Source: Sedimentisphaera salicampi
Lineage (GTDB): Bacteria; Planctomycetota; Phycisphaerae; Sedimentisphaerales; Sedimentisphaeraceae
Reading direction: 5' to 3'
Length of the DNA stretch: 64,000 bases
NCBI RefSeq assembly: GCF_002117005.1
Contig: NZ_CP021023.1
Span: 2,404,995-2,468,994 of the forward strand
Shown here: positions 20,342 to 38,798 of the stretch, one piece after another
Position numbering within the stretch: the stretch's first letter is position 1
How the letters are laid out: the number at the start of each line of letters is the position of its first letter
The notes under the pieces: model-generated
Databases searched by the model: none
Told to the model about the DNA's origin: nothing
What the model saw: the letters and a program-made list of their open reading frames with translations, nothing else
Translations under genes and position numbers: made by a program

Positions 20342-20349
20342 CTGTGTTT

Positions 20350-22120: not shown

Positions 22121-22274
22121 CATACCTCCCCGCCGGCAGCAGTAAAAGAGTGTTTTTTTCTTATTTTGCAAAAGAATTCAGGTACACGTTTTTTGAGGAA
22201 AAAAATTAAATTAAATGACATATACATAAGAACATATTATTTTTAAAATGATATCTAATCCTATGAGGACAATT

Positions 22275-24506
22275 ATGAAAAATACATTAACAAAAGCGAT
22301 TTTAATTACAGCAGCTTCTTTTTGTGCAGCAGCCGTTTTCGCAGATGTGAATATCGATTATCTGTCTGCTCCGGACAAAACAGTTAGCGAGCTTCTCTTC
22401 GGCTACAATACTCTTTACTGCGTTCCCGACCAGCCGGAGGACGGCTTCATGCCGGACGAGCGGTGGCAGGCGGAGTATCTGCCTCAAACGATGCAGGAGC
22501 TCGGCGTTACCTCGCTTCGCTATCCGGGCGGGCATATTGTATCCTTCTGGCACTGGGACGACCCCTTCGCCGGCGGATGGGTGGATTTATGGGATCCGTC
22601 AAAAACATTCGACTCAAGGGCGGTAAGAGAGCAGCAGTATTCAGGCTTTATGGATCTGGATGAGTATATCCAGCAATGCAAAACTCTCGATATTGAGCCG
22701 ATTCTCGGGGTAAACGTGCTTGCGGGATACAAATTCGGCCGCGTTCAGGATTCGATAGATGAGGCTGTGGCAATGCTTGATTACTGCGAGCAGAATGATT
22801 TCGATGTAACTTACCTCTATCTTGATAATGAGGTCGGCCATCAGGGAGGACTTCCCAATCATATAGATGCAGGGGCATATCCCGAGCTTGTGAAGCAGTT
22901 TTCGATTGGTATTAAAAACGAATACCCGAACATAAAGCTTATATGCAACTATATACACGGCCTCACGCATTGGACAGTCAAAGATCTTGTCCGAGATTAC
23001 GGGCAGTATTTCGATGTGATAGACAAACACCTGTACTACAATACAGGCGTTTGGGGCGAATATTCGCGAAATGATTGGCTCAATGATTTTACGGTTGACG
23101 GGTACAAATCAGAGATAGACAGCTTCCATCAGTTCTGCAAAGATACCGGTAATGAGCACATCCAGCTTGGATTTATGGAGTGGAATTTCGGCGGCTCAGC
23201 GGGAACCAGCAGCGAGAACGGGAATTTCTTCGATCAGGCTATGGTTATGTCTGAGATTATGATGATGTTCATTGAGAAAAATGTGGATATGGCATGCGTA
23301 TGGCCTATTTACTGGCCCGGGACCGGCAGAAATCTCGTCGAATTCGAACCATACAAACACAGGCCGAGCTTCACTGCGATGCAGATGTTCAAGGAGATTC
23401 AGGGGCAGGAGGTGCTTTCTTTCAGCTCAGATGCTCAGAATGCTATTGTGTTGGGGGCACATGCAAAGAGAAGCGAGACAGCCAAGAATCCGAAAATAGT
23501 AATTCTTGTCCTCAGCAAAGATACCAGCGAGAGCAGGGATTTTACGATAAACCTTGGGGATATCAGCCCGGAGTTTGTTTCCGGAACCTCTATTGCAGAG
23601 GGCGATAACGGCTGGCACAGGTCGGTAAGAATGTCCCCTTCTTTGAATCAGGATAATCAGATCAGCTTTAACGTCCCCGGTCTCTCGCTTACCAAGATAA
23701 CAGCAGTTATGAGCAAGTCGGATATAAATGCTGATTTAGAGGTGGATATCGAAGACTTTATGCTCCTCGGCGACGAATGGCTCTCTTCGCCGGATAATGT
23801 GTTCGCAGACATCGCCCCAGCTCCATCTGGTGATGGATTTGTAGATATGATTGATTTATCCGCATTTTCGGGGCAATGGCCGGGATTTTATAATAACCTG
23901 TTTTGCTGGTGGGAGTTTGAGCAGGCAGCAGGCCAGGAGGCAGGCGATTCAAGCGGGAATTCAAGAATTGGAACTCTTTCAGGTACAAACTTTCAGGATA
24001 GCTCTGTGCGGGGGATTTCCGGCGATGGCCTTTATTTCGACGGAGTTGATGATAAAGTTACATTAGATTTAGCCGGCAGCGAGTGGCCGGAATATACGGT
24101 AAGCTTTTGGGTGAAGACATCGCATTTAGGGCAGGCCAATTACAGCGGCTTATTCAACACAAGCAGCAATAATAACGCAAATACCTTCCAGATTGATGTT
24201 GACGGCGGGAATCCGGGCAGCTACAGGTATCACGGCTCTGCAGACGGGATAATCGGCACGGTGAAAGATGACTGGACGTATATTGCGGTTTCGTTCAGCA
24301 GCGGCTCTGCCGATCTCTACTATAACGGCAGTTTCGTTCGAAGCGTCAGCGCCGGCGATACGCAGATAGACAGGCTCCAGCTTGGCGTTAATCGCAGCGG
24401 GCATTTGCCTTTCGAAGGCATAATTGACGAGTTAAGAGTGTATGATGATGCCTTGAGCAGCGGGGAAATACAAGACTTGTATCTTTCACTACTGCCGCAG
24501 CGATAG
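22275..24506 (+). CDS. Clan GH-A glycoside hydrolase with internal dockerin-like module and C-terminal LamG-like domain
   Basis: 743-residue secreted enzyme. ATG 22275 is preferred over ATG 22248/22263: GAGGA at 22264-22268 is spaced for it and the signal peptide (MKNTLTKAILITAASFCAAAVFA) starts there. Residues ~25-470 resemble GH51/GH39-type alpha-L-arabinofuranosidases or related clan GH-A enzymes: LGVTSLRYPGGHIVSFWHW near the start, acid/base Glu186 in YLDNEVG and nucleophile Glu302 in LGFMEWNFGG. Residues ~482-535 are a dockerin-type double calcium loop (SDINADLEVDIEDFMLL and SGDGFVDMIDLSAF). Residues ~545-740 are a concanavalin-like LamG domain (WWEFEQAAG, YFDGVDDKVTL, IDELRVYDDALS), typical of glycan binding. 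The exact GH family is unsure. Confidence 0.78.
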   Translation: MKNTLTKAILITAASFCAAAVFADVNIDYLSAPDKTVSELLFGYNTLYCVPDQPEDGFMPDERWQAEYLPQTMQELGVTSLRYPGGHIVSFWHWDDPFAGGWVDLWDPSKTFDSRAVREQQYSGFMDLDEYIQQCKTLDIEPILGVNVLAGYKFGRVQDSIDEAVAMLDYCEQNDFDVTYLYLDNEVGHQGGLPNHIDAGAYPELVKQFSIGIKNEYPNIKLICNYIHGLTHWTVKDLVRDYGQYFDVIDKHLYYNTGVWGEYSRNDWLNDFTVDGYKSEIDSFHQFCKDTGNEHIQLGFMEWNFGGSAGTSSENGNFFDQAMVMSEIMMMFIEKNVDMACVWPIYWPGTGRNLVEFEPYKHRPSFTAMQMFKEIQGQEVLSFSSDAQNAIVLGAHAKRSETAKNPKIVILVLSKDTSESRDFTINLGDISPEFVSGTSIAEGDNGWHRSVRMSPSLNQDNQISFNVPGLSLTKITAVMSKSDINADLEVDIEDFMLLGDEWLSSPDNVFADIAPAPSGDGFVDMIDLSAFSGQWPGFYNNLFCWWEFEQAAGQEAGDSSGNSRIGTLSGTNFQDSSVRGISGDGLYFDGVDDKVTLDLAGSEWPEYTVSFWVKTSHLGQANYSGLFNTSSNNNANTFQIDVDGGNPGSYRYHGSADGIIGTVKDDWTYIAVSFSSGSADLYYNGSFVRSVSAGDTQIDRLQLGVNRSGHLPFEGIIDELRVYDDALSSGEIQDLYLSLLPQR

Positions 24507-24514
24507 TTGAAATT

Positions 24515-24608
24515 GGGGACAGTTAACTATTTAAGTAATATAAAATCTTTTACTTAAGCGAGATATGAGATTTGGTGGCTTGGGGAATTAATTTGTAACT
24601 GTGTCCCC
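24515..24608. repeat. 94-bp repeat with inverted ends, copy 1 (REP/MITE-like)
   Basis: Starts GGGGACAGTTA and ends TAACTGTGTCCCC, an imperfect terminal inverted repeat. The interior (ATTTAAGTAATATAAAATC, then AAGCGAGATATGAGATTTGG) is nearly identical to the copy at 31227-31318 in the same orientation. Both copies begin 8 bases after a stop codon. Confidence 0.85.
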
Positions 24609-24620
24609 CTATTTCGTTTC

Positions 24621-25544
24621 CTATTCTCCAAGCCAGTTTTCGCTGAAAATGAGCAAATCTGCGATGTCTATTTTTTCTCCGCTATCGCCTTCAATATCAA
24701 GATTGCAGGCTGCAGTCCAATTTGAACCGCCAAGCTCGCTTAGCCAGCAATCAGCGAAAACAGCAAAATCTTCATAATCAACAACTCCATCGGAATTGAA
24801 ATCTCCGACCAGCTCTTCTGGCTCTTCGCCGATTATAATATCATCATAAAGCACACTGTAATTTCCTACAGAAGAAGGGATGCTGTGCCCAGACAGCCCA
24901 ACACCCTCAAAGTCGTCTCTATTAATTCCGCTTAACCCGTTTTGAGCATCTACGGTAATATCAACTCCGCCTGTACCTTGAATATTTAGCGACGAAGTTT
25001 TTTGCTGCCAATTGATATTGTAGGTGAGGGTATATGTGCCGCCACTTACAAAATTGCCGATTGTAGTGAAGGGGTAAGAATCGTAATTTACGTAAACTAT
25101 CTTGTAATGAGAAGGACTAACCGATGAGCCGTATGGCTTTTGCAAATCAAAATATATGTTTCCAAGCCTGGAACCAATGGCATTAGCTCCTGTAAATCTT
25201 GCCCTGCCCAAACCGACATAGCCATGTCCATAATTACTCGGACTGTATGAAGGCACTCTTAATGTTAAAGTAAAAGTAAACTCATCGCCTTCGGGTAAGT
25301 CAAATGGATATGTGCATATCGTTCCCGAAGTTGTCGAACCGCCGCCGCCCGAATAAAGTGACTGAGTGCCGAAGACAGGACCAACATCTGTGATCCCAGC
25401 ATTTTCCGTTCCAGCAGTCCAAGGCGCCGGCAAGCCTTGAGATGCCGTATAATGCGGCGGCTCAAAGTCTATAATTTCAAAAGAATACGCATTTACCGAA
25501 AGCAGTAAAGCTGCCAAAAACACTGAAATAGTAAAACACCTCAT
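24621..25544 (-). CDS. Secreted protein with C-terminal dockerin-like module
   Basis: 307 residues, read leftward and convergent with the GH-A gene. A signal peptide (MRCFTISVFLAALLLSVNAYS) leads into a ~220-residue beta-rich domain (FEIIDFEPPHYTASQGLPAPW onward) that resembles lectin or PEP-type surface domains but that I cannot place. The end is a dockerin-type calcium-loop pair: DFNSDGVVDYEDFAVFADCWL and GDSGEKIDIADLLIFSENWL. Likely a carbohydrate-binding or adhesive exoprotein. Its own promoter should lie in 25545-25640, where AT-rich sequence is present but no clear pair of hexamers. Confidence 0.7.
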   Translation of the reverse strand: MRCFTISVFLAALLLSVNAYSFEIIDFEPPHYTASQGLPAPWTAGTENAGITDVGPVFGTQSLYSGGGGSTTSGTICTYPFDLPEGDEFTFTLTLRVPSYSPSNYGHGYVGLGRARFTGANAIGSRLGNIYFDLQKPYGSSVSPSHYKIVYVNYDSYPFTTIGNFVSGGTYTLTYNINWQQKTSSLNIQGTGGVDITVDAQNGLSGINRDDFEGVGLSGHSIPSSVGNYSVLYDDIIIGEEPEELVGDFNSDGVVDYEDFAVFADCWLSELGGSNWTAACNLDIEGDSGEKIDIADLLIFSENWLGE

Positions 25545-26040: not shown

Positions 26041-26094
26041 TGGATTATATATATTTCCCCTGCGTCTGTCCGCCATTTCCAGATAAATTTTCGT

Positions 26095-27015
26095 CTATTC
26101 ATTTTTGTCCCTTTTGATCTGGTCAAAAGCTTTGGTGATAAAGTCGAGCATTATCGGCATTGCATTTTTTTCAGTTTTCCGGCTCTGATAAAAGAAGCCG
26201 TGTCCCAGCCCTTCGAAAAGTTCGATCTGTACATGGGAGCCCTTTTGCTTTAAGGCTTTTGCAAACCTGACGGCCTGCAGATAATCTATGGTAGTGTCAG
26301 CGGTTCCATGCATAAGCAGAACGCGGGGAGGTTTTTGGGGGATGTTATAAATTGCGGAGGCGTTTTTTTTGTCTTCGAGGGTTTCTATGCCGTAATTTTC
26401 ACATGTTTTGCCGAATCTGCCCTGGCCTACGTCAACCAGATCATAGAGGCCGCAAAGTCCTACGTAAACTTTGATGTCGGGATTTTTCTGGGCAAATGTG
26501 GAGGAAAGCTGCGCGCCGGCCGAAGCCCCTGCCATTGCGATTCTGTTTTTATCGAAACCATAGGTTTGGGCATTATGCTTTACCCATCTAAGAGCGTCGG
26601 CGATATCGGAGGCTGCCCTATCAAACTGGCCTGTTTCGATCTTTTTGGCGTGGCGATCATTTTTCCAGTCGTAGAGCCTGTAGTCGATACTGACTAATGA
26701 GATACCCTTTTTGGCAAGTTCAAGAGCTTTTTGTTTTTCACCTGTGCGTGAGCCTGCAACCCATCCGCCGCCGTGAACCCAGATTATGACGGGTCGTTTA
26801 ATTTGTCTTTTGCCTTTCGGCCAATAGATGTCTGCGGCAAGTTCGAGTGAGCCGATCTTTTTGTAGATAACAGTTTCAAGGCAGACGTTGTCATTTAAAA
26901 CCTGAACGCCTTCAATAACCGGCTGATATTTTAATTTGCGGTCAGGTTTTGAGTAAACCGGCGTCATTAAAAAAAGGATTGTTATAAGGATGAGAGTTTT
27001 ATTGATAATGCCCAT
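26095..27015 (-). CDS. Secreted alpha/beta hydrolase (esterase of the BD-FAE / acetylesterase type)
   Basis: 306 residues with a signal peptide (MGIINKTLILITILFLMTPVYS). The alpha/beta hydrolase core has the oxyanion motif WVHGGGWVAGS (near residue 80), the nucleophile elbow GASAGAQ (Ser near 165), an acid in HGTADTTIDY and the catalytic His in GLGHGFF. These are the hallmarks of small carbohydrate esterases that remove acetyl or feruloyl groups, consistent with the glycan genes to the left, though the substrate is not determinable. Monocistronic on the minus strand; AAGGAAT at about 27019-27025 (read on minus) is the ribosome site. Confidence 0.8.
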   Translation of the reverse strand: MGIINKTLILITILFLMTPVYSKPDRKLKYQPVIEGVQVLNDNVCLETVIYKKIGSLELAADIYWPKGKRQIKRPVIIWVHGGGWVAGSRTGEKQKALELAKKGISLVSIDYRLYDWKNDRHAKKIETGQFDRAASDIADALRWVKHNAQTYGFDKNRIAMAGASAGAQLSSTFAQKNPDIKVYVGLCGLYDLVDVGQGRFGKTCENYGIETLEDKKNASAIYNIPQKPPRVLLMHGTADTTIDYLQAVRFAKALKQKGSHVQIELFEGLGHGFFYQSRKTEKNAMPIMLDFITKAFDQIKRDKNE

Positions 27016-27148
27016 GTGATTCCTTCAAAAAAACTAAACTTGCATATTAAATTTTACAAACATCCCATAGAAGAACAAAATATAAGATGTTTCTTTAAAG
27101 TTAGCGGTGTATGAGCTGCACTAATTTCGACAAAAACAGGAGCAACTC

Positions 27149-27313
27149 ATGACACCCGCCAAACAACAATATACAATTCTCAAGCAAATATGCCAACATA
27201 TTCCTGCTCATCTTGTTTCAAAATTGTCTCGGTCTTTCGGTATTGACAAGCAATCAAGAACATTTTCTTGCTGGTCTCACGTAAGGAAATGGGAGGCGGC
27301 TGCCTATTTTTAA
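27149..27313 (+). pseudogene. Truncated IS4-type transposase remnant (DUF4372-like N-terminus)
   Basis: An ORF with a good ribosome site (AGGAG, 27138-27142) starts MTPAKQQYTILKQICQHIPA and continues to GIDKQSRTFSCWSHV, the conserved opening of IS4 transposases with a DUF4372 domain (typically ...RTFSxWSHV...). Homology stops at about 27281. The sequence then runs into unrelated repeat-like DNA and a stop after 54 residues, whereas intact transposases are near 350-400 residues. It is a 5' fragment left by deletion or by insertion of the following sequence. Confidence 0.65.
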
Positions 27314-27326
27314 CAGTAAAAAGCTC
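27291..27326. repeat. Short palindrome-containing repeat, copy 1
   Basis: GGGAGGCGGCTGCCTATTTTTAACAGTAAAAAGCTC resembles 31413-31446 (GGAGGTAATTACCTG followed by TTTTTAATAGTAAAAAGCTT). The two bracket the accessory genes at 27716-31218. The gene-free stretch 27314-27715 also has GGGGGACTAATTTGCCCCC (about 27360-27378) and nothing else I can name. Confidence 0.5.
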
Positions 27327-27715
27327 TATATAATAATGAGATAGGGAATTGGCCGGCATGGGGGACTAATTTGCCCCCTATTTTTAAGCACCAAAATTGT
27401 TCTAATAGGCTGCAAAATAAAAAAAATTACTTTTTTTCTTGCAATTGCTGTTTTTGGCGTTAAATTGCGATTATTATACCAAGAACAGAAAGAGCCTGTG
27501 CAGGAAATATGTGTTATGATGGTGGGAATATTTTAAGAGAGGCGTGATTATCTTCGTTTAACTGAGATGATAGGCGGTAAGACATTGAAAAACAAGAAAT
27601 TGACGCATTCGGAGCGGCGCAATCAAAGGCGTCTTATATGGCAGAAACAAAGAACTCCGCATATTATGCGGATCTTATGCGGATGAGTCTATTTATTGTT
27701 CGGGGGTATTGAAAA

Positions 27716-28120
27716 ATGATGGAAGTGCTGAAATTGGTCATTCCAGTTGTTATTGCAGTCCTTGGTTGGATCTTGGGGCATTTGCTCAGTTCTATACGTG
27801 AACGTGAGAACAAGAAGCGCGAAATACGCCTAGAAAAGCTCATGGAGGCGTATGATTGGTTTGGCCGGGCGATGATAGAAGGCCAGAATGAGGAAATCAA
27901 CGTACAGTTGTCGATGGCTATTCACAACAGTCAGTGTTACGGAACGTGTCGAGAACAGAAAATGGCAATTGAGTATTGCCAAGCAATAAAAGAAAAAAAA
28001 AGTGCAGACGCATTAGAACTGATTAAAAGCATAAGAAACGTGATAAGAGAAGAACTTGGCCTATCACCTTTTGAAGAACCCGTTTCGTGGGTTGTACATA
28101 GTGCAGATACGGACAAGTAA
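27716..28120 (+). CDS. Small membrane protein of unknown function
   Basis: 134 residues. An N-terminal membrane helix (LKLVIPVVIAVLGWILGHLL, residues ~5-25) is followed by a highly charged, probably coiled segment (SSIRERENKKREIRLEKLMEA) and a helical soluble domain ending in LGLSPFEEPVSWVV. I do not recognise a family. GGGGGT at 27700-27705 is a plausible ribosome site for ATG 27716 (or ATG 27719). The stop codon is immediately followed by an attC-like hairpin, and the low-GC phosphoesterase-NTPase gene starts 92 bases further on in the same direction. It could be an integron-type cassette gene or a membrane partner of the downstream protein. Confidence 0.6.
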   Translation: MMEVLKLVIPVVIAVLGWILGHLLSSIRERENKKREIRLEKLMEAYDWFGRAMIEGQNEEINVQLSMAIHNSQCYGTCREQKMAIEYCQAIKEKKSADALELIKSIRNVIREELGLSPFEEPVSWVVHSADTDK

Positions 28121-28121
28121 G

Positions 28122-28184
28122 CAACTAAAAAGACGATTCACCGGACGGCTAATCGCCGCCGGTGATCTTGACGTTATACATAAA
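28122..28184. other. attC-like hairpin (possible integron recombination site)
   Basis: Directly after the stop at 28120. Arms AAC ... AAGA ... TCACCGG-A-CGGC and GCCG-CCGGTGA ... TCTT ... GTT fold into a long interrupted stem with a TAATC loop, one extra A and an unpaired CGAT on one side. It ends GACGTTATAC, near the GTTRRRY core of attC sites. The left core (AAGCAAC) matches RYYYAAC poorly. No integrase gene or second attC is visible, so this is tentative; it could instead be an attenuating hairpin, but no T-run follows. Confidence 0.35.
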
Positions 28185-28212
28185 ATGATAATTGAACAGT
28201 AATGGAGGTATT

Positions 28213-31200
28213 GTGGAAATAGGGTTGATACACTTAACAGATCTTCACTTGGAAAGTAAAACAGATATTGCAAATAAAATCAAATCGTTATGTTCAGTTA
28301 CAAATAACGAACTATCAACTGCTGGAAAAAGATATCTGGTTATTAGTGGAGATCTTGTCAATCAAGGTAAAGCAGAAGAATATGCTAAAGCAAAAGAAAT
28401 ATTTCAAAATATTTCAGAAAAATGCAATATCGACAATCTAATAATGGTCCCTGGAAATCATGATTGTAATTTTGACCTTAATAACCAGATCAGAAAAAAC
28501 ATTATAAGTAATATTGATTACGATACTATTGGTAATGATGACTCGGTAATAAAACAGGCAACAGAAGTACAAAAAGATTTCTGGGATTTTTATTCTGAAT
28601 TTAATGAGAAGCCAGATAATTATCTTGCATATAAAATCGTTGATAGTTTTAACGGAATTAATATATCCTTTATATGCTTTAATACTTCATGGATGTCTAG
28701 CAAAAATGAGAAAGTTGGAAGTTTATTCTTTCCTACAAAAATAATTGAAAATTTGGGGGATAGTACTGATATTTCAATTTCGGTATTTCACCACCCTTTA
28801 AACTGGTTTTCTCCGAATAAAACAACAAATAATAGAAATGAGTTCCAAGCTTATCTAGATAGAATTTCAAACCTTAAGCTAATTGGGCATGAACATGAGA
28901 ATAAATCAATATCCAGAACAGATTTGGATACAAATATTAATGTCTTGGAGTTTTCAGGTGAAATCTTCAATAAAAACAGTGATTCTCATTCGGGATTCCA
29001 AATATTCAAAATTAAACCTAAAGAGGATAAAATATTATTAAAAAAATATTTTTGGAACGATGATTTATACATCAATGATAATCATGAAAGAGAAATTTCG
29101 ATACAAAAAACATCAAATCGAAAGCTTAATATAAAAAAGCATTTTTTGGACAAACTTGATGACATTGAAATTCCTTTACATATTGAAAAAAGGCAAATTT
29201 CATTATCGCAAGTATATGTATATCCAGATCTTGAAGAAAGAAAGGAAGATTTCAATGAGTTGGATAGTTACATTGATTCCAGGCAACTGTTAGAAAATAC
29301 AAAATTTAGCAAAGTAATTTTAGATGGAGATAGTCAAATAGGAAAGACGTCTTTATTATCAATACTTTTCAAGGAGTTCTATAAATTGGGACATTATCCG
29401 TTTTTATTAAACGGTGAAGATATAAACATTACGAGTATAGATGAATTAATACGAAAACATTTTCATGAAATATATGATAATAATTCTCAGCTTGATAGGT
29501 ATTTACAGATAGAAAATAATAAGAAAGTAATATTGATAGATGATTTTTATAGAAATAAACTAAATGGCGAAAGATTAAAACAATTTATCGAAGAGATTTC
29601 TAATAAATATGCTAAAATTATTATTGTTACAGATTCGTCTGTTGAATTATCAGCAGAAGTTCAATCTGTGTTCAATGACTATGACAAACTGACAATAAAA
29701 CCCCTTGGATATATAAAAACTGATGAATTAATAACCAATTATTTTGAATGCAAAAGTGATTTTTCTACATTAGGAGAGCAGGCAAAATTATCAAAAATAA
29801 AAAGTTCCTTTAATCAGGTCAGGAGCCTGTTAGGGGATAAAATATTACCTTCATATCCTGTGTTTATCTTATCTTTATTAAGAACTTTAGATGAAGCTAC
29901 ATTTAGTTTAAATGAAACATCATATGGTTATTGCTATGAGTCGTTGCTCTACTTTGCATTTAAATCAAAAGCCAAGTTAGAAGAAAATCAATTAAGTTAT
30001 TATTTATCCTTTATAGAACAATTAGCATTTGACTTATTTAAAACAAATAGAACATTTTTTGATGATACTTATTTGTGTTATTTTTATGAGGAATACAAGA
30101 AAAACCATTTTATTGATGATTTTTGTACATTAGAAAAAATTCTTCTGGATTCTTATGTTCTAAAAAAATACGATAATACATATCAATTTGGCTATAAATA
30201 CATCTATTATTTTTTAGCTGCAAAACACATTGCAGGCCTCATTAATACAGAAGAGGGCAAAAAAATAATTAAAGGCTTGTTTGATAAATTATACCTTGAA
30301 GAAAATGCTAATATTCTTGTTTTTGTCACACACCATACAAAAGACAATGATTTTATTGAAAAGTCTGTGATAAAAGCAATGGAGCCTTTTGAATGTATTG
30401 AACCAATAACACTAAAAAAAGATTGTAAATATTACTCTTTGATATCGGGATTAGCGGAAGATATTAAAAAAGAAATTTTAAAAGCTGATATATCACCTAG
30501 TAAAAAAAGGAAAGAAGATTTAGGCGAGGTCGATAATAATTACCAAAAATTAAATGATAATGATTTTACTGAAAATGACGTTGTTAGGCCATATATTACA
30601 GCCTTCAAAGCTATAGATATTGTTTCTCAAATAATAAAAAACCGTGTCGGCTATTTAAAAAAAGATGATTTGGTAACTTACATTAACGAGATATATCTTA
30701 CAGGATTCAGAATGATTGGGGCGATAGGCGAAACCTATAATAATGCTAAAGACGAAATTTTAAACGATCTTGTTAATTCAATCATTGACGATATAGAAAA
30801 AAGGGCTAAAAACAGAGAATACTTGATGGCAGAACCCATAGATCGCTCAGTAATTGAAAAAAAAGTTTATAGATTTTTTGAAATAATTAATCTTCAAATA
30901 TGCTTAAGTATATTTTCTAAATTGGTTGAGTCAGCTGGTATTGACGACTGTAAAGTCAGAGAAATATATTCAAAAGTAGCTAATAATATTAATACCCCTG
31001 CAGCCCAATTAGTAACATTTAGTATTAGGTCATACTACTATGGGGTGTCTGTCAAAGAAATTAAAGATCATGCTGAAAAGTTTTATAACAATCCAGTTGC
31101 ACTGAAAATATTAAAGGCAAGAGTTATATCATATGTTTATAACAACCATTTAGCTTACAAAACGAAACAACAGATTTCTGAAATATTAGGATTACAGCTT

Positions 31201-31218
31201 AGACCAATTCAAAGATAG
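28213..31218 (+). CDS. Calcineurin-like phosphoesterase fused to P-loop NTPase (candidate STAND-type defence protein)
   Basis: 1001 residues. GTG 28213 is chosen because GGAGG (28204-28208) precedes it and the phosphoesterase fold starts at once (MEIGLIHLTDLHL); the TTG at 28192 lies upstream of that site. All five metallophosphoesterase motifs are present: D10-L-H12, SGDL (Asp47), PGNHD (Asn82, His83), FHHP and IGHEH, close to CpdA-type enzymes. A P-loop follows: Walker A GDSQIGKT (372-379) and Walker B KKVILIDDF (437-445). The remaining ~500 residues are charged and alpha-helical, as in NLR-like STAND sensors, without recognisable repeats. GC content is far lower than the neighbours (16 of 60 bases in one sampled line), indicating transfer. 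A phage-sensing nuclease or nucleotide phosphodiesterase role is inference. Confidence 0.75.
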   Translation: MEIGLIHLTDLHLESKTDIANKIKSLCSVTNNELSTAGKRYLVISGDLVNQGKAEEYAKAKEIFQNISEKCNIDNLIMVPGNHDCNFDLNNQIRKNIISNIDYDTIGNDDSVIKQATEVQKDFWDFYSEFNEKPDNYLAYKIVDSFNGINISFICFNTSWMSSKNEKVGSLFFPTKIIENLGDSTDISISVFHHPLNWFSPNKTTNNRNEFQAYLDRISNLKLIGHEHENKSISRTDLDTNINVLEFSGEIFNKNSDSHSGFQIFKIKPKEDKILLKKYFWNDDLYINDNHEREISIQKTSNRKLNIKKHFLDKLDDIEIPLHIEKRQISLSQVYVYPDLEERKEDFNELDSYIDSRQLLENTKFSKVILDGDSQIGKTSLLSILFKEFYKLGHYPFLLNGEDINITSIDELIRKHFHEIYDNNSQLDRYLQIENNKKVILIDDFYRNKLNGERLKQFIEEISNKYAKIIIVTDSSVELSAEVQSVFNDYDKLTIKPLGYIKTDELITNYFECKSDFSTLGEQAKLSKIKSSFNQVRSLLGDKILPSYPVFILSLLRTLDEATFSLNETSYGYCYESLLYFAFKSKAKLEENQLSYYLSFIEQLAFDLFKTNRTFFDDTYLCYFYEEYKKNHFIDDFCTLEKILLDSYVLKKYDNTYQFGYKYIYYFLAAKHIAGLINTEEGKKIIKGLFDKLYLEENANILVFVTHHTKDNDFIEKSVIKAMEPFECIEPITLKKDCKYYSLISGLAEDIKKEILKADISPSKKRKEDLGEVDNNYQKLNDNDFTENDVVRPYITAFKAIDIVSQIIKNRVGYLKKDDLVTYINEIYLTGFRMIGAIGETYNNAKDEILNDLVNSIIDDIEKRAKNREYLMAEPIDRSVIEKKVYRFFEIINLQICLSIFSKLVESAGIDDCKVREIYSKVANNINTPAAQLVTFSIRSYYYGVSVKEIKDHAEKFYNNPVALKILKARVISYVYNNHLAYKTKQQISEILGLQLRPIQR

Positions 31219-31226
31219 GGGGAATA

Positions 31227-31318
31227 GGGGACAGTTACCTATTTAAGTAATATAAAATCTTTTACATAAGCGAGATATGAGATTTGGCGGCATAGAAAAT
31301 TAATTAGTAACTGTCCCC
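31227..31318. repeat. 92-bp repeat with inverted ends, copy 2 (REP/MITE-like)
   Basis: GGGGACAGTTACC at the left and GTAACTGTCCCC at the right form a near-perfect terminal inverted repeat. The interior is almost the same as 24515-24608. It starts 8 bases after the stop of the phosphoesterase-NTPase gene. The ends resemble palindromes spread by REP-associated tyrosine transposases; that link is inference. Confidence 0.85.
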
Positions 31319-31412
31319 TATTTCCGAACCTATATCTGCTGCTTTTTTAGGCATTGGCGGATTAATACTAAGGCGAAGAAAATAACGTATGAGAAATAGG
31401 GGGGGGTAAATA

Positions 31413-31446
31413 GGAGGTAATTACCTGTTTTTAATAGTAAAAAGCT
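31413..31446. repeat. Short palindrome-containing repeat, copy 2
   Basis: AGGTAATTACCT is a perfect 12-bp palindrome, followed by GTTTTTAATAGTAAAAAGCTT as at 27291-27326. The gap 31319-31543 holds no gene. Confidence 0.5.
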
Positions 31447-31543
31447 TGTAGCTCTCCCATCAGCTGAAAACTGCACGGGATGCCGATTGATGCTGTCAAA
31501 GATCAGGGAACAGCAGGGAATCTGCACAATTTTGGCGCAGGAG

Positions 31544-31963
31544 TTAAATTTTTAGCGTTTTGATAAAATCCCTGATCTCATCCCGCACTTTTCTGTAGCA
31601 GTCGAGTTTGAGGTCTTGATAATGATATGCAGATGCCATCTCGGGCGGGTCGTGGAAGCTTTTATGAACCACCTTTTCCGCCCCCGGAAAAACTGGGCAG
31701 CTCTCTTTTGCATTATCGCAGAGCGTTATTATCATATCAAAGGTTTCCTCAAGGAAAACCTCCAGTGATTTCGAGCTGAGCATCTGAGTATCGAGCCCTG
31801 CCTCTTCCATCGCATCAACAGCAAAGGGGTCTATCCCCTTGGGGTTCAGGCCTGCGGAGAAGGGCTCAACAGTTTGAGATTTCAGCTCCCTTGTCCACGC
31901 CTCTGCCATCTGGCTTCGACACGAATTACCCGTACACAGAAAAAGAACTTTCTTTTTCGCCAT
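31544..31963 (-). CDS. arsC: Arsenate reductase, thioredoxin-coupled low-MW phosphatase type
   Basis: 139-residue cytosolic enzyme reducing arsenate to arsenite. The N-terminal P-loop is C10-TGNSC-R16, the phosphotyrosine-phosphatase CX5R loop, followed by S17. The redox cysteines Cys82 and Cys89 in TLCDNAKESCP sit at exactly the positions known for the staphylococcal pI258-type ArsC, and the general acid Asp is in FHDPPE near residue 105. No ars regulator or efflux gene is next to it, so it may act in general detoxification. It reads leftward, 117 bases past the argS stop, so it has either its own promoter or readthrough past a weak hairpin. Confidence 0.9.
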   Translation of the reverse strand: MAKKKVLFLCTGNSCRSQMAEAWTRELKSQTVEPFSAGLNPKGIDPFAVDAMEEAGLDTQMLSSKSLEVFLEETFDMIITLCDNAKESCPVFPGAEKVVHKSFHDPPEMASAYHYQDLKLDCYRKVRDEIRDFIKTLKI

Positions 31964-32012
31964 TGGTTTCTCTCTCTCATTATGTATTTTAAAATCCCAA
32001 AAATGCCTTAAA

Positions 32013-32029
32013 CAGGGCTCTAAGCCCTG
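32013..32029 (-). terminator. Hairpin after argS (weak terminator)
   Basis: CAGGGCT and AGCCCTG form a perfect 7-bp stem with a 3-nt loop. On the minus strand it is followed only by TTTAAGGCATTTTT, so termination may be partial. Confidence 0.45.
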
Positions 32030-32080
32030 AAAAATGCAAAATAAAAGCTGCCCAGCAGCTAAACGCAGCGGCGCCTTCCG

Positions 32081-33835
32081 CTACATCTGCTCAGGAACGT
32101 CTATCCGAAGAATCTCCTCCAAACCGTGCCTGAGGGTCTGGTGGGTGAGCCGGCAGAGGGTAAGCCTTGAGCTTCTGGTAATTCCCTCTGAGCTGAGCAC
32201 AGGGCAGTTAGTGTAGAAGGCGCTGAATTTCTGAGCAAGCTCGTAGAGATAAGCGGTGATGAAGTTCGGCTTGTATTCCGCAAGTGCGCCTCTTATTGCG
32301 AGCCCGTATTTGAGCAGATGAACTGCCAGATCCCTTTCGGCATCTTCCAGCACTTCGAGCCTATCAAGCCCGTCAATTTCGCTCTGAGTATCGATTCCCT
32401 TTTCTTTGGCCTTCTTCTCTATAGATTTAACCCTTGCGCAGGCATACTGCATATATGGTGCTGTATTCCCGTCCATCGAGAGCATCTTATCGAAGCTGAA
32501 GATGTAGTCGGTGGTGCGGTTGTTGGAGTAGTCTGAATACTTTATCGCACCTATGCCCACAGCCTCTGCTATTGATTTCTTCTCATCCTCGCTCAGCCCC
32601 GGGTTCTTCTGATTAACCACAGAATAAGCCCTCTCAACGGCCTCTTCCAGCAGGTCTTTGAGCTTAACGGTATCCCCGGAACGGGTTTTGAAGGGCTTGC
32701 CGTCTTCACCGAGCATTGTGCCGAAGGTTACGTGTCTGAGCTTTTGGTTCTGTGCTATGCCTGCGAGTTTTGCTGTGGCGAAAAGCATCTTGAAATGCAG
32801 GATCTGCCTTGCATCTGTAACGTAAACTATCTCGTCTGCCCCCAGCTTATCAATGCGGTATTTGAGGGCTGCAAGGTCGGTAGTGGCGTAGAGGAATGCC
32901 CCGTCGCTTTTCTGCACTATAAACGGAAGGGGCGAGCCGTCTTTGTTCTTGAACCCTTCCGGAAAAACGCATACCGCTCCATCAGACACCTCTGCGCAGC
33001 CTTTCTCTTTGAGGTGATCTACAATCTCCTGCAGCTGGCCGGCATAGGCGCTTTCGCCCCGCTCATCTTCTCTTGTAAGAGTTGCATTGAGCCTTTGATA
33101 GATCAGTGAATAATGTTTTCTGCTCTCTTCGATTATATCAATCCAGCTCTGCTTCCAGAACTGCTCGCCTCTGTGCAGGCCTGCGATTGCGGCTCTTGCT
33201 GTCTGGGCAAATTTTTCATCCTCATCGTAAAGCTTTTTCGCTTCCCTGTAGAAGGATTCGAGGTCTGAAAGGGCCATTGATACCTTTTCGCCGGATTCCT
33301 TCTTGCGTTCGAGAAGTGCGCAGAGCATACCGAATTGAGTGCCCCAGTCGCCGATATGGTTCTGCCTTACCGCATTATGCCCGGCAAATTCCAGCAGCCT
33401 GCAGATGCAGTCTCCGATTATAGTGCTCCTCAAATGGCCTACGTGCATCTCTTTTGCGATATTCGGGCCGGAATAATCCACCACAACCTTCTCAGGAGAC
33501 TGAACCTTCTCGATACCGAGCCTCTCAGGATCAGATGCAGTTTCTAAAAGGGCCTTGCTGAGGAATTCAGGTTTTATGCGGAAATTTATAAATCCAGGGC
33601 CTGCAATTTCCGGCTCGTCGCATATATCCGATACATCAAGCTTATCTGCAGCCTTCTCAGCGAGCCCTCTTGGATTCTGCTTTGTTTTTTTGGCCGCAGC
33701 CATAACACCGTTAGACTGATAATCGCCGAATTTGGGGTTTGCTGAAGGACGTACTATCGCAGGGAATTCGCTGCCGGTTATCTCTTTCAATACAGAGCTG
33801 AGTCTTTCCTCGAGTATGTCTGCTGTTAGCTTCAT
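32081..33835 (-). CDS. argS: Arginyl-tRNA synthetase
   Basis: 584-residue class I synthetase charging tRNA-Arg. The start ATG at 33835 gives MKLTADILEERLSSVLKEI, the usual Arg-tRNA-synthetase N-terminal domain; the longer frame upstream would overlap rsfS and is rejected. AGGAG lies about 11 bases before it, inside the end of rsfS. The HIGH-type motif is KEMHVGHLRST, and the KMSKS loop is degenerate (GKPFKTRSGDTVKL), as is common in ArgS. The C-terminal DALR anticodon-binding domain ends with GLEEILRIDVPEQM. Last gene of miaA-nadD-rsfS-argS on the minus strand. Confidence 0.96.
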   Translation of the reverse strand: MKLTADILEERLSSVLKEITGSEFPAIVRPSANPKFGDYQSNGVMAAAKKTKQNPRGLAEKAADKLDVSDICDEPEIAGPGFINFRIKPEFLSKALLETASDPERLGIEKVQSPEKVVVDYSGPNIAKEMHVGHLRSTIIGDCICRLLEFAGHNAVRQNHIGDWGTQFGMLCALLERKKESGEKVSMALSDLESFYREAKKLYDEDEKFAQTARAAIAGLHRGEQFWKQSWIDIIEESRKHYSLIYQRLNATLTREDERGESAYAGQLQEIVDHLKEKGCAEVSDGAVCVFPEGFKNKDGSPLPFIVQKSDGAFLYATTDLAALKYRIDKLGADEIVYVTDARQILHFKMLFATAKLAGIAQNQKLRHVTFGTMLGEDGKPFKTRSGDTVKLKDLLEEAVERAYSVVNQKNPGLSEDEKKSIAEAVGIGAIKYSDYSNNRTTDYIFSFDKMLSMDGNTAPYMQYACARVKSIEKKAKEKGIDTQSEIDGLDRLEVLEDAERDLAVHLLKYGLAIRGALAEYKPNFITAYLYELAQKFSAFYTNCPVLSSEGITRSSRLTLCRLTHQTLRHGLEEILRIDVPEQM

Positions 33836-33840
33836 CCGCT

Positions 33841-34224
33841 CTAACTCTCCTGCCACTGAATCTGTTTCGCATCGCCCCAAAGCAGTTCGAGGTCGTAGTA
33901 TTCTCTGAATTCGCTCTCAAACAGATGTACTACCACGTCCACAAAATCAAGCAGTATCCATCTACCCTGTTCGAAGCCGGCTTTTCCAAAGGCCTGAAAG
34001 CCGGTCTGCTTGGCCTCCTTAAGAACTTCCTCTGCAACGCTTCTGGTTTGACGGTCGCTTGTGCCCGTTGCGATTACCAAATACTCAACTGCCGGATTCT
34101 GCCCGCATAAATCAAGCACAACCACATCTGAGAAGTGCCTGTCTGAGACCAGACGAGCCATCTCTACTGCAAAATTCTCAGCTTTTTTCTTTTCTTTTTC
34201 TGGTATCAATACAAGAAGCTCCAA
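33841..34224 (-). CDS. rsfS: Ribosomal silencing factor RsfS
   Basis: 127-residue factor that binds L14 and blocks subunit joining in starvation. Family signatures: VVVLDLCGQNPAVEYLVIATGTSDRQTRSVAEEV, then RWILLDFVDVVVHLFESEFREYYDLELLWGDAK. It lies five bases upstream of argS and 80 bases after nadD, the common nadD-rsfS pairing. Confidence 0.95.
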   Translation of the reverse strand: MELLVLIPEKEKKKAENFAVEMARLVSDRHFSDVVVLDLCGQNPAVEYLVIATGTSDRQTRSVAEEVLKEAKQTGFQAFGKAGFEQGRWILLDFVDVVVHLFESEFREYYDLELLWGDAKQIQWQES

Positions 34225-34304
34225 AAATTTTCTTTTATTATTAGCGTTTCAATCTCTGCCCGAAGCGCTGCCGGCGTATAATTTTACCTTAATAGCAGTT
34301 TATA

Positions 34305-34922
34305 TCAACCTGCTGAGTTAGCGGAGTAAACATTATTTTCCTTTATATACTGCTCCACAGCTTCTGGTACAAGCCCTGAGATTACATTTCCGCTGCTTAG
34401 TCTGCGGCGGATTTCTGTACTGCTTATATCGTAAAGAGGCGAATCTATGATGATATGCGGCAGTTTTTTGCCGAGCTTCGCCTCAATTTCTGCAAAATCA
34501 GGCCGTCTGGCAGAATCCCTCTTAACCACCGCCAGCGAGGCAAGCTCGATAATCTTATCTGCCCTGTACCACATATGGAATTCTTTTATCACATCCGCCC
34601 CGCAGAGCCAGAAGAGCTGGGCAGATGGGCTCTCGCTCTTGAGTTTTTCCAGCGTGTTGACGGTGTAGCTGGGCTGGGGCATATTGAATTCCATATCCGA
34701 AATGCTGCACCATTCTAATCCGGAAAATGCAAGCTCCAGCATCTCAAAACGCTGGGCATTGGAGGCCTCGGGTGAGCCAGTTTTGAGCGGCGATATTGCG
34801 TTGGGCAGAACAATTGCTCTGTCAAATCCGCCTTGCTGGTAGGCAGCCTGAAGGATATTTGTATGGCCTTTATGTACGGGATCGAATGTCCCGCCAAATA
34901 GAAGGAGTTTTTCAGCCATCAT
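34305..34922 (-). CDS. nadD: Nicotinate-nucleotide adenylyltransferase
   Basis: 205-residue enzyme adding AMP to nicotinate mononucleotide in NAD synthesis. GGTFDPVHKGHTN is the HxGH nucleotidyltransferase motif and DISSTEIRRRL is the second conserved motif (ISSTxIR). The start (ATG 34922, or ATG 34919 next to it) overlaps the end of miaA by about 10 bases, indicating translational coupling; GGAAGG precedes it by 8 bases. Confidence 0.95.
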   Translation of the reverse strand: MMAEKLLLFGGTFDPVHKGHTNILQAAYQQGGFDRAIVLPNAISPLKTGSPEASNAQRFEMLELAFSGLEWCSISDMEFNMPQPSYTVNTLEKLKSESPSAQLFWLCGADVIKEFHMWYRADKIIELASLAVVKRDSARRPDFAEIEAKLGKKLPHIIIDSPLYDISSTEIRRRLSSGNVISGLVPEAVEQYIKENNVYSANSAG

Positions 34923-35856
34923 CCAGCCCGCCTTCCTGCTGCAAGATCTTCATTGCCCTGTCCAGAATAGAGACTTCAGATTCGTCCTGCCCTGCATTGA
35001 TCCATTTGATATTATGAAAATTCTTAAACCACGTCCGCTGGGATTTTGCGAATTTGCGGGTGTTAATCTTAATCTGCTCCACAGCCTTTTCAAGCTCCAT
35101 ATTGCCTTTGAACACTTCAAAAAGCTCTGCATAGCCGATCGCAGCGGCGGCCTGTTTGCTGAGCGGTTTGTCGAGGCTGTAGAGCATCTCGGCCTCTTCA
35201 ACGAGCCCCGTCTCTATCATTCGCTTCACCCTTGCATTTATCCGCCGGCTTTCAAGCTCCTTTTCCCGCCGGATACCTATCACAATCCAGCTCGGGTCGG
35301 GCGAGGAATTGAAATGCACCTGAAAAGAACTTATCGGCCTGCCTGTAAGCTCGTAAACCTCCATTGCCCTGATGAGCCTTTTGGTATCGTTTGGGTGAAT
35401 TTTGTCTGCGGCCTGCGGGTCTATCCTGCTTAGCTGCTGGTGGAAGGCCTGTTTGCCTTCAGTTTCGAGCTTCTTTCTGAGCTTGTCTCTTAGCTGATTG
35501 GATGTTCCCGGGCCATCGAAAAGGCCGTAGAGCATATTCTTGAGATACATCGCTGTTCCGCCGACGCCTATAACCCTGTTATTCCTTGAATAAATATCTT
35601 CAAGAGCCTTATCTTTCAGCTCAAGAAAGCTGCTCACGCCAAACTCCTCCCACGGCTCCACAACATCAGTCAGATGGTATTTTACCACGTCTCTTCTTTC
35701 CTGCGGCGGTTTGGCAGTGCCGATATCCATTTTTTTATAAACCTTCATGGAGTCTATGCTTATAATCTCAGCGCCGATTTTCTGCGCAAGACCGTAGGCC
35801 AGCGAGCTCTTTCCGCCTGCTGTAACGCCGGTGATTATGACTTTCTTTTCGCTCAA
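34912..35856 (-). CDS. miaA: tRNA dimethylallyltransferase
   Basis: 314-residue enzyme that transfers dimethylallyl from DMAPP to A37 of UNN-reading tRNAs. The P-loop is GVTAGGKSS (family usual GPTASGKS), then EIISIDSMKVYKKMDIGTAKP with the catalytic Asp, HLTDVVEPWEEFGVSSF and NDTKRLIRAMEVYELTGRP. First gene of the minus-strand miaA-nadD-rsfS-argS run, diverging from ispA across 120 bases. The isoprenoid genes on the other side (ispA, dxs) supply the same C5 pathway. Confidence 0.95.
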   Translation of the reverse strand: MSEKKVIITGVTAGGKSSLAYGLAQKIGAEIISIDSMKVYKKMDIGTAKPPQERRDVVKYHLTDVVEPWEEFGVSSFLELKDKALEDIYSRNNRVIGVGGTAMYLKNMLYGLFDGPGTSNQLRDKLRKKLETEGKQAFHQQLSRIDPQAADKIHPNDTKRLIRAMEVYELTGRPISSFQVHFNSSPDPSWIVIGIRREKELESRRINARVKRMIETGLVEEAEMLYSLDKPLSKQAAAAIGYAELFEVFKGNMELEKAVEQIKINTRKFAKSQRTWFKNFHNIKWINAGQDESEVSILDRAMKILQQEGGLDDG

Positions 35857-35976
35857 TATTGTCCTCTTATTTTAGCCCTCAGCAGAAACATTTTTCGTGA
35901 TATTGCTTCTTGCAGGAATATAATATACTGTTTTGGCAAATATTTTCTACCTCTCATTAAAACAAGAGTTTGATAA

Positions 35977-36876
35977 ATGAAAGCTAATACAGAACAGCAG
36001 CTCCCAAAACAGCTTGAGGCTGCTGCAAAAATAGTAAACCGGAGAATCAGCGAATATCTCGAAAATCGCGATGATATCCATCCCAAGCTCAAGGAGGCTG
36101 TGGTTTATGCCGCAAGCTCTCCGGGCAAGAGGCTTCGGGCAGCGGTTATTCAGATGGTTTGCAGGCTCTTCAGCGGCAGCATAAATCAGGATGCCATTAC
36201 CGCTGCGTGCAGTGTGGAGATGATGCATGCATATTCGCTTGTGCATGATGATTTGCCTTGTATGGATGATGACCAGCTCCGCAGAGGCCAGCCCACTGTG
36301 CATGTAAAATTCGGCGAAGCCTCGGCGGTTCTCGCGGGAGATGCCCTTCAGAGCCTTGCCTTCGAGATCCTCGCAAAGGAAATCAAAGACAGCGAAAAGG
36401 CAATTAAACTGATCGGTATCTTGAGCGGTTTCTCAGGAGCAGGGGGGATGATTTCCGGACAGGCTGCAGATATGGAGGCGGAAAATATGCATTCCGGCAT
36501 TGAAGAAGTGGAATATATCCACAACCACAAAACTGCGATGATGTTTGCAGCCTCAGCCGCTATGGGGGCTGTATGCGGGGATGGAAAATCTGAGGATATT
36601 CACAATATGATGCAGTGGGGAATTTACGCAGGGCTCTGTTTTCAGGTGGTGGATGATTTGCTTGATGAAAGCTCTACCCCCGAAGAGCTCGGTAAATCCA
36701 CTGGAAAAGATCTCCAGCAGGGCAAGGCTACATACCCTGCTGCGGCGGGGAAGGAAGAATCTGAAAAAAGGGCGAAGGCTCTTGCCGGCAAAGCTGCAGA
36801 AATCCTTGAAATATACGGTCAAAGAGCAGACAATATCAAAAGCCTTACTCAATTACTTTATGACAGAAAAAAATGA
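35977..36876 (+). CDS. ispA: Polyprenyl diphosphate synthase (farnesyl/geranylgeranyl type)
   Basis: 299-residue trans-prenyltransferase building C15/C20 diphosphates from IPP. The first Asp-rich motif is HDDLPCMDDDQLRRG (the bacterial DDx4D type) and the second is QVVDDLLDESSTPEELGKSTGKD. SSPGKRLRA is the upstream substrate-binding segment. Chain length cannot be fixed from sequence alone. Its stop overlaps the dxs start by ATGA. A TATAAT at 35919-35924 could be its -10, but no good -35 is seen. Confidence 0.92.
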   Translation: MKANTEQQLPKQLEAAAKIVNRRISEYLENRDDIHPKLKEAVVYAASSPGKRLRAAVIQMVCRLFSGSINQDAITAACSVEMMHAYSLVHDDLPCMDDDQLRRGQPTVHVKFGEASAVLAGDALQSLAFEILAKEIKDSEKAIKLIGILSGFSGAGGMISGQAADMEAENMHSGIEEVEYIHNHKTAMMFAASAAMGAVCGDGKSEDIHNMMQWGIYAGLCFQVVDDLLDESSTPEELGKSTGKDLQQGKATYPAAAGKEESEKRAKALAGKAAEILEIYGQRADNIKSLTQLLYDRKK

Positions 36877-38798
36877 ACGATAGAGAAACTGAAAAACAAA
36901 CGCTGCTTGATGCAATAAACTCCCCTGAGGATATCAGGCAGCTTTCAATACCTCAGCTCGGTGAGCTGGCAGAACAGATCAGGGATTTTATAGTCAGCAC
37001 AGTAAGCGATACAGGCGGGCATCTTGCAAGCAATTTAGGTACAATAGAAGCCACGCTCGCTATGCATTACGTTTTTGATTTCTCTAAAGACTACCTGCTC
37101 TGGGACGTGGGGCATCAGTGCTACGCCCATAAGATAATAACGGGCAGGAAGGACAAATTCAGCCTTCTCCGCAAGGAGGGCGGCGTGAGCGGTTTTCCCG
37201 AGCCTTCAGAGAGCAGCTACGACCGTTTCCGCGTCGGACACGCTGGTACTTCCATAGCAACGGGTCTCGGCATTGGCTGGGGGCTTATGGATCAGGGCAG
37301 GGATGATAAGGTGGTTTCCTTCGTGGGAGACGGGAGCATTGTAAACGGGGCATCATTCGAGGCTCTCAACAATCTGCCCGGTCTGCCGAGGCAGATGCTC
37401 GTTGTGCTCAACGACAACAATATGAGCATCGACGTTACAAGAGGAGCTGTAGCCAAGATTTTTTCCAAAATACGCCTCAACAGCACTTACGAAGAGCTCA
37501 ACAGAACTGCCAAGACTATCATTGAGCATATGCCGCTGATTGGAAAGCAGGTGGAAGGGGCAGTTCAGAGGTTTAAGAAGGCTATCAGGATGCAGCAAAG
37601 CGCCGGCCAGCTCTTTGAAAGCCTGAATCTTTCGTATTTCGGACCGGTAAACGGCCACGACATCGGCTCGCTCATAGAGCTTTTCACCGCCCTGAAAGAC
37701 CTCGATCACCCAGCAGTTCTGCATATATACACAAACAAGGGCAAAGGTTATAAACCTGCCGGGGATAATCCCTCGAAGTACCACTCCACAGGCCCTTTCT
37801 ATATAAACGGCGAATCGAAGAAGTCTGGAAAGAAGAGCTACACAAAGGTGCTCGGCGAAGCGCTCTGCGAGATTGCAGCTGATAAGAATTCCGGTGTTGC
37901 CGCTATAACAGCAGCTATGCCCGAAGGTACGGGGCTCAATATCTTCCGCGATCATTTCCCCGATAAATACTACGATGTGGGGATATGCGAAAGCGCTGCT
38001 GTGGATATGGCCGCCGGCATGGCAAAAACCGGCCTAACGCCTTTTGTGTGCCTATATTCAACATTCCTGCAGAGGGCATTCGATCAGATTGCTCACGATA
38101 TCGCCCAGCAGAATCTGCACGTTGTATTCTGTATCGACAGGGCTGGGGTTGTGGGTGATGACGGCCCAACTCACCACGGTATGCTCGATATTGGTATGCT
38201 CAGAATGCTGCCCAATATGATACTCTGCGCTCCGGCAAGCGGGGAGGAAATGAGAAGCGCTCTTATGTATGCTGAGAAAACGAAGGCCCCTGTAGGAATA
38301 CGCTACCCGCGGGATGTGCTGCCGGAGAACCTCAGCGATATCGAAAGCCTGAGCGAAGATTTCGAAACGGGAAAGAGTGTTTTACTATCGGCAGGTGATG
38401 CTGATGTTGTATTGGTTTCTTATGGGGCAGTGCTTACAGAGGTGGTGGAAGCTGCGAAGATTCTCGAACAGAGCGGGCTGCGATGCGATGTGCTTAATGC
38501 AAGATTCGCCAAGCCCATAGATCCGCAGATCGTGGAGCTTGCAAGAGAGGGGAAAATGCTTTTCTGCCTTGAAGACCACGGAGCGGCAGCAGGATTCTGC
38601 TCGGCTGTGCTGGAGGAGCTTTCCAAGGCGGGCGTTTCTTCGGAAAACGTGTTCTGTCTTGCAGCGCCGGATGAATATATCGATAAGGCCTCGAGAAAAA
38701 CGCAGCTTGAAAGGTGCTGTGTGGGCAGTGAAGAGATCAGCAGACAGGTTCAGGCAAGAATAAGAGATAATAATTTGTATGAAAAAGCACATACCTAA
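36873..38798 (+). CDS. dxs: 1-Deoxy-D-xylulose-5-phosphate synthase
   Basis: 641-residue thiamine-diphosphate enzyme making DXP from pyruvate and glyceraldehyde-3-phosphate, the first step of the MEP pathway and also the source of DXP for pyridoxal phosphate (pdxB is in this window). Visible features: GGHLASNLGTIEATLAMHYVF, WDVGHQCYAHKI, the ThDP motif GDGSIVNGASFEAL with NDNNMSID, and the transketolase central domain (GICESAAVDMAAGMA, DRAGVVGDDGPTHHG). Overlaps ispA by 4 bases and pgsA by 20. Confidence 0.97.
   Translation: MNDRETEKQTLLDAINSPEDIRQLSIPQLGELAEQIRDFIVSTVSDTGGHLASNLGTIEATLAMHYVFDFSKDYLLWDVGHQCYAHKIITGRKDKFSLLRKEGGVSGFPEPSESSYDRFRVGHAGTSIATGLGIGWGLMDQGRDDKVVSFVGDGSIVNGASFEALNNLPGLPRQMLVVLNDNNMSIDVTRGAVAKIFSKIRLNSTYEELNRTAKTIIEHMPLIGKQVEGAVQRFKKAIRMQQSAGQLFESLNLSYFGPVNGHDIGSLIELFTALKDLDHPAVLHIYTNKGKGYKPAGDNPSKYHSTGPFYINGESKKSGKKSYTKVLGEALCEIAADKNSGVAAITAAMPEGTGLNIFRDHFPDKYYDVGICESAAVDMAAGMAKTGLTPFVCLYSTFLQRAFDQIAHDIAQQNLHVVFCIDRAGVVGDDGPTHHGMLDIGMLRMLPNMILCAPASGEEMRSALMYAEKTKAPVGIRYPRDVLPENLSDIESLSEDFETGKSVLLSAGDADVVLVSYGAVLTEVVEAAKILEQSGLRCDVLNARFAKPIDPQIVELAREGKMLFCLEDHGAAAGFCSAVLEELSKAGVSSENVFCLAAPDEYIDKASRKTQLERCCVGSEEISRQVQARIRDNNLYEKAHT

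Follow-up and report, generated by a model that had tools for sequence, protein, structure and literature searches.

The gene at positions 28213–31218 (+) of the 64,000-nucleotide stretch of the Sedimentisphaera salicampi genome analysed here (the window) is an intact open reading frame encoding a protein of 1001 aa, which by sequence is a distant, well-formed and horizontally acquired member of the DS-8 family, a family that is already known. The protein is composed of an N-terminal calcineurin-like metallophosphoesterase (MPP) domain, a Walker A/B NTPase and a long helical C-terminus, and it probably acts as a one-protein STAND (NLR-like) immune receptor, the assembly of which would activate the phosphoesterase effector. 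The gene starts with GTG (28213–31218, +), and a ribosome-binding site, GGAGG (28204–28208, +), is positioned 4 nt 5′ of the GTG; a TTG at 28192 is a possible alternative in-frame start upstream.

The 1001-aa protein matches the DS-8 family

DS-8 is a single protein with a metallophosphatase domain and a NACHT domain that protects E. coli against phages (DefensePredictor, Science April 2026, PMC13092281), and its defence is completely lost on mutating either of two MPP catalytic residues or one NACHT ATPase residue (PMC13092281). Using the NCBIfam release of June 2026, we found that the 1001-aa protein matches the equivalog DS8_antiphage (NF053861) over model positions 1–994 of 994 at 859.1 bits versus a cut-off of 790, which the score exceeds by only 69 bits. 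Two models of PADLOC PDC-S60 also match the protein (182 and 114 bits; E 3.8e-54). PDC-S60 is a candidate family of PADLOC (2023) without a published mechanism, and the name is used in no paper found by our literature search. The sequence-only reading of this DNA had proposed an undescribed defence protein. Its inference of phage defence is supported by the equivalog-level match to a family with a validated role in defence and by the NLR-like predicted structure, but the protein is not undescribed: PADLOC had listed PDC-S60 in 2023, and the DS-8 publication of April 2026 already includes mutants of the very kind that the reading had proposed. Earlier work had named calcineurin-like phosphoesterases among the effectors of STAND-type conflict systems and systems related to them (PMC7159879, PMC8195603).

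Like DS-8, the protein carries everything on one chain, with the MPP domain first, then a NACHT-type NTPase and then a helical C-terminus, and its MPP catalytic and Walker residues are intact, both domains being needed in E. coli DS-8. It differs from DS-8 in its distance, with an identity of at most ~33% to any homologue retrieved (a figure that covers these homologues and not the E. coli DS-8 sequence itself), and in its clade, which includes TIR-bearing forms and is separate from the main Proteobacteria clade. DNA searches of E. coli genomes gave no match, whether the query was this gene or a homologue from a betaproteobacterium. DS-8 function may be retained in this distant member.

Two further antiphage groups were compared. 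DS-9A (NCBIfam NF053862) matches the protein at 49 bits, far under the cut-off of 420; it has a homologous MPP domain, the catalytic residues of which are required for defence (PMC13092281), but it consists of two genes, includes a HAD phosphatase and lacks NACHT. Profile searches do not support membership in Avs1–4: PADLOC at E values up to 1 gives only PDC-S60 and PDC-S10, and no PADLOC Avs model matches the protein, the domain order of which the sequence-only reading had likened to that of STAND/Avs-type proteins.

The N-terminal segment is a phosphoesterase domain nearest to YydB

The metallophosphoesterase effector domain, residues 1–300 (28213–29112, +), is defined by Pfam Metallophos (PF00149; residues 6–229, E 8.5e-11, passing the cut-off) and by structural alignment of model residues 1–302. 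All five MPP motifs read from the sequence are present on the + strand: motif I, D10-x-H12 (28240–28248); motif II, G46-D47 (28348–28353); motif III, G81-N82-H83-D84 (GNHD, 28453–28464); motif IV, H193-H194 (28789–28794); and motif V, G225-H226-E227-H228 (28885–28896). None of the catalytic residues varies in the MPP homologues compared (36/36, from many phyla), the full set of invariant positions being D10, H12, G46, D47, G81, N82, H83, D84, R94, N157, H193, H194, W198, G225, H226 and H228.

The nearest structure to the MPP model, by a wide margin, is B. subtilis YydB (9a6c_B; Z 29.6 over 286 residues, 21% identity), with the next structure at 21.2. Further Z scores for residues 1–302 are 21 for purple acid phosphatase, 20 for Rv0805, 19.5 for GpdQ, 18.8 for SMPDL3A and 16.8 for Mre11. 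YydB differs from the 1001-aa protein in that it has 481 aa, is modelled with a separate protein, YydD, and lacks NACHT; we take it to be part of an ABC-ATPase three-gene conflict system. As a side observation, the nearness of YydB to the DS-8 effector domain hints at one effector type common to different defence-like systems.

The structural matches also bear on whether the effector of the same receptor is an Mre11/SbcD-like nuclease acting on DNA or RNA of the phage or of the cell. STAND defence proteins (Avs) usually have nuclease effectors, Mre11/SbcD structures match the MPP domain (Z 15.5–16.8), and three homologues give weak matches to TIGR00619 SbcD. However, YydB, purple acid phosphatase, Rv0805, GpdQ and SMPDL3A fit better and over more residues (Z 18–30 versus at most 16.8), and an Mre11-type capping domain was not identified. 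We regard a nuclease as rather unlikely, though it is the most probable of the alternatives to the mechanism proposed below.

The NTPase and helical region are predicted to form a STAND chassis

The STAND/NACHT NTPase core, residues 304–499 (29122–29709, +), is recognised from Pfam nSTAND3 (residues 349–473, 28.2 bits versus a cut-off of 27.2), from nSTAND_NTPase4, which matches 34/36 homologues but not the 1001-aa protein at E 0.01, and from the predicted NLR fold. The Walker A motif GDSQIGKTS, residues 372–380 (29326–29352, +), and the Walker B motif KVILIDDF, residues 438–445 (29524–29547, +), that the sequence-only reading had pointed out are conserved among the homologues at G377 (40/40), K378 (36/40) and D443 (39/40). 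Residues 500–660 (29710–30192, +), in the position of HD1-WHD, are predicted to comprise a helical domain and a winged helix on the basis of AlphaFold2 (AF2) and of alignment with NLRP3, NOD2 and NLRC4, their boundaries being putative. The helical C-terminal region, residues 662–1001 (30196–31215, +), is recognised from AF2 helices and is proposed as the phage sensor, a role suggested by its position. In the AF2 secondary structure, a helix-helix-beta-hairpin follows the NTPase at 618–659, and the C-terminus is, as had been claimed, almost wholly helical, with the winged-helix beta-hairpin at ~650–659 as the exception.

The full-length AlphaFold2 model, built with 36 homologues, has a pLDDT of 84 and a pTM of 0.70, and the model of the NTPase and C-terminus alone (the chassis) has a pLDDT of 87 and a pTM of 0.83. 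The chassis model fits NLRP3, NOD2 and NLRC4 with Z ~14.5 over 374–400 residues at a high rmsd of 5.6–10.5 Å, and DnaA/Hda with Z ~10. Foldseek aligns it with portal-bound Avs4 at E 1.7e-4 but with an rmsd of 22 Å, and a PDB search by sequence profile returned mostly P-loop noise. The predicted structure supports the order effector, NACHT, HD1, winged helix and helical region, which is the STAND organisation; the profile search for STAND subdomains and the structure prediction that had been suggested as checks both agree with the effector-NTPase-sensor order proposed from the sequence. The likeness to the animal NLRs (NLRC4, NLRP3 and NOD2) lies in the predicted NACHT-HD1-WHD-HD2-like order, while animal NLRs and Avs4 have another effector and another sensor, and no membership by sequence connects them with the protein.

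MPP and TIR are exchanged on one chassis

The chassis, ~700 residues in length, also occurs with a TIR domain in front of it, on plasmids of Vibrio parahaemolyticus, Streptococcus and Lactococcus, and TIR-chassis forms are present in two genomes from the host's own order as well. For example, the TIR-nSTAND protein of V. parahaemolyticus pVPHB2014-1 (WP_159404407.1) shares a ~700-residue homologous chassis with 23–26% identity, but its N-terminal domain is TIR and not a phosphoesterase; the DS-8 model scores 480–604 bits with such proteins, which are chassis-only matches under the cut-off. The TIR parts match TIR_2, in three cases also PADLOC ThsB models, and the TIR forms match the PADLOC PDC-S60 model PDLC05050 too. 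A variable N-terminal effector, MPP or TIR, upon a conserved NTPase-sensor chassis is a likeness to STAND/NLR ATPases. A relative that seemed to be without an effector (L007 in genome G116) is cut off by a contig end and does not enter the count of effector types.

A maximum-likelihood tree built on the chassis places the five TIR forms, the Bacteroidota-type clade with the 1001-aa protein and one viral-contig form together on one side of a branch supported at 100/99. Since TIR and MPP forms lie in one well-supported clade, the tree, as reconstructed from sequence, needs at least one exchange of effector on the chassis. The DS-8 paper does not use the word TIR in its main text (PMC13092281).

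The exchange bears on what the phosphoesterase does. The authors of the DS-8 paper (PMC13092281) favour a regulatory role, in which the phosphoesterase of the same receptor would clear a cyclic-nucleotide signal, as SMPDL3A does with cGAMP or CpdA with cAMP. SMPDL3A and Rv0805 are indeed structurally similar to the MPP domain; they share its fold, but SMPDL3A and CpdA (Rv0805) are stand-alone enzymes, unlike the 1001-aa protein. Purple acid phosphatases and YydB fit as well or better, so cyclic nucleotides are not singled out by the fold, and CpdA-type models stay far under their cut-off: membership among CpdA / cAMP phosphodiesterases was rejected on the equivalog PRK11148.1, at 13 bits versus a cut-off of 225. 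TIR domains are typically NAD-consuming or signal-making, not signal-removing. An MPP that TIR can replace on the same chassis is more simply read as a harmful output in the infected cell than as a means of signal clearance, which suggests that the MPP is an interchangeable lethal effector. We thus consider a signal-clearing role unlikely, slightly more so than a nuclease.

Homologues are sporadic, AT-rich and in part near defence genes

When 84,980 species genomes were scanned with an alignment of two homologues, 40 loci were found, most of them full-length; a scan of genome contigs with the 1001-aa sequence alone gave no relatives. The hosts include Bacillota, Bacteroidota, Pseudomonadota, Verrucomicrobiota, Planctomycetota, Acidobacteriota, Gemmatimonadota and Nitrospirota, and additional homologues come from viral contigs and plasmids, while the phage records searched gave no match. 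Within the host's class, 9/397 genomes match at all, three of them with the full-length MPP form. The sequences that cluster with the 1001-aa protein are flavobacterial and from Bacteroidales (support 100/100, ~32% identity), and homologues from the host's own family and class (G018 and G264) branch away from it. This grouping with Bacteroidota, apart from the own-family and own-class homologues, suggests transfer between phyla. DS-8-type genes at four loci (L062, L075, L076 and L078) seem split in two frames and are possibly decayed.

The gene has a GC content of 28.0% (22.1% at third codon positions), and 3-kb stretches in the rest of the window have a mean of 48.2% (sd 2.3, minimum 42.3%), a deficit far beyond chance. 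The sequence-only reading had called attention to this difference, and the numbers uphold it; as evidence specific to this host it does not stand, because GC is lower than in the flanks at 40/40 homologue loci (L002, L039, L048–L050 and L052–L086, with hosts from many phyla), by a mean of 11 points (Wilcoxon p 2e-12). The family as a whole has low GC, which perhaps stems in part from a composition rich in lysine, asparagine and isoleucine.

The clustering of homologues in defence islands, which had been suggested as a check, is seen in part. A relative on a Paenisporosarcina plasmid adjoins restriction-modification (R-M) genes and a Pycsar effector, DNA methylases are adjacent to the Lactococcus TIR form, and other relatives have a helicase and a methyltransferase (L050) or serine integrases (L048) nearby. 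In a PADLOC scan, 108 neighbours matched 316 models, with type I R-M leading, versus 117 models, with housekeeping cross-matches leading, for 101 control genes of the same genomes; the neighbour counts are of families and not of members, and the enrichment is thus qualitative only. The three closest relatives, from flavobacteria, have ordinary metabolic neighbours and no defence genes.

These metabolic neighbours, and the abundance of MPP superfamily enzymes in metabolism, are what speaks for a housekeeping fusion of a metabolic phosphodiesterase with a regulatory ATPase, unrelated to defence. The sporadic distribution within the class, the match at equivalog level to a family with proven defence activity, the mobile and R-M neighbours in other genomes and the TIR exchange on the chassis all argue against such a fusion, and we hold it to be very improbable.

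The gene lies in a segment absent from the sister species

Flank alignment to another species of the genus (G063, hereafter the sister species) reveals a ~4.2-kb insertion at 27360–31543, a segment absent at the same place in that species. The flanks, 26066–27238 (93%) and 31544–39392 (85%), align to adjacent positions of its genome, where an esterase (window 26095–27015) and a low-molecular-weight phosphatase-like gene (31544–31963) adjoin; a DS-8-type gene is absent between these two neighbours and elsewhere in the genome.

Directly after the stop codon of the DS-8-family gene there is a REP/MITE-like hairpin of the GGGGACAGTTACC...GGTAACTGTCCCC type (31220–31325; inverted repeat 88%, fold z −4.7), and sequence comparison places a copy of the same dispersed repeat left of the insertion (27303–27359). 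Further copies, with GGGGACAGTTACC arms, lie at 31408–31447 of the window and at 19349–19422 of locus L037. The sister genome has one copy in the empty site and at least five elsewhere (at least six close copies in all), and the host genome has only one close copy.

The insertion also contains an open reading frame (27716–28120, +) for a hypothetical protein of 134 aa with a hydrophobic segment near its N-terminus, the product of which has no Pfam or PHROG match and a single plasmid relative, a hypothetical protein of Burkholderia ubonensis (32%). A role as obligatory partner is not supported, since the 134-aa protein has almost no relatives and DS-8 is a one-protein system (PMC13092281). Between this frame and the DS-8-family gene, an attC-like imperfect hairpin, recognised by eye, occupies 28115–28190 (z −4.2) and ends in GACGTTATAC. 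The gene cassette that the sequence-only reading considered possible remains putative, as no integron integrase in the host genome exceeds the cut-off (best TIGR02249 match 77 bits, cut-off 265). No tRNA that could mark an insertion site lies within the window, and an Rfam search of 24.5–34.5 kb found nothing. Farther upstream, a DDE transposase at 20202–22076 is intact and is present in the sister species too (~87% DNA identity); if this is the IS remnant mentioned in the sequence-only reading, that term does not fit its 542-aa open frame (20344–21972), which is common to both species. Two genes at 22248–25544, between the transposase and the esterase, are missing from that place in the sister species.

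An acquired gene could also be decaying cargo that no longer works as defence in this host. The strong compositional mismatch, the lack of the gene in the sister species and the frame-broken relatives at the four loci named above are consistent with decay, but the 1001-codon frame is intact, a ribosome-binding site is present and every catalytic residue is retained, which makes decay improbable.

Proposed mechanism

As a one-protein receptor of the DS-8 family, the protein would rest in an inactive state maintained by its NACHT/nSTAND NTPase. The helical C-terminus may recognise a phage-made molecule, upon which ATP binding would drive assembly of the receptor, and assembly would switch on the N-terminal binuclear-metal phosphoesterase. 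The phosphoesterase would then cut a phosphodiester or phosphoanhydride bond; its substrate would most likely be a small nucleotide or a molecule derived from one, less likely nucleic acid, and the infected cell would no longer support phage growth, presumably through cell suicide. More tentatively, and with somewhat less than even confidence, we propose that the MPP of this subclade is directly lethal, is activated by NLR-type assembly and is interchangeable with TIR; its target would be an essential metabolite of nucleotide type, one that the known defence phosphoesterases are not known to attack, and it would not be a regulator that degrades cyclic nucleotides.

Significance

Eukaryotic innate immune receptors are considered to derive from NLR-like receptors of prokaryotes, and MPP is the newest validated effector of the prokaryotic forms. 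With the 1001-aa protein, the DS-8 family reaches a host that is distant from E. coli. That MPP-NACHT and TIR-NACHT proteins have a chassis in common goes beyond what the DS-8 paper states in its main text, and one chassis with either MPP or TIR gives a direct test of the role of the phosphoesterase: if TIR and MPP are interchangeable, both should bring the same kind of infected-cell shutdown.
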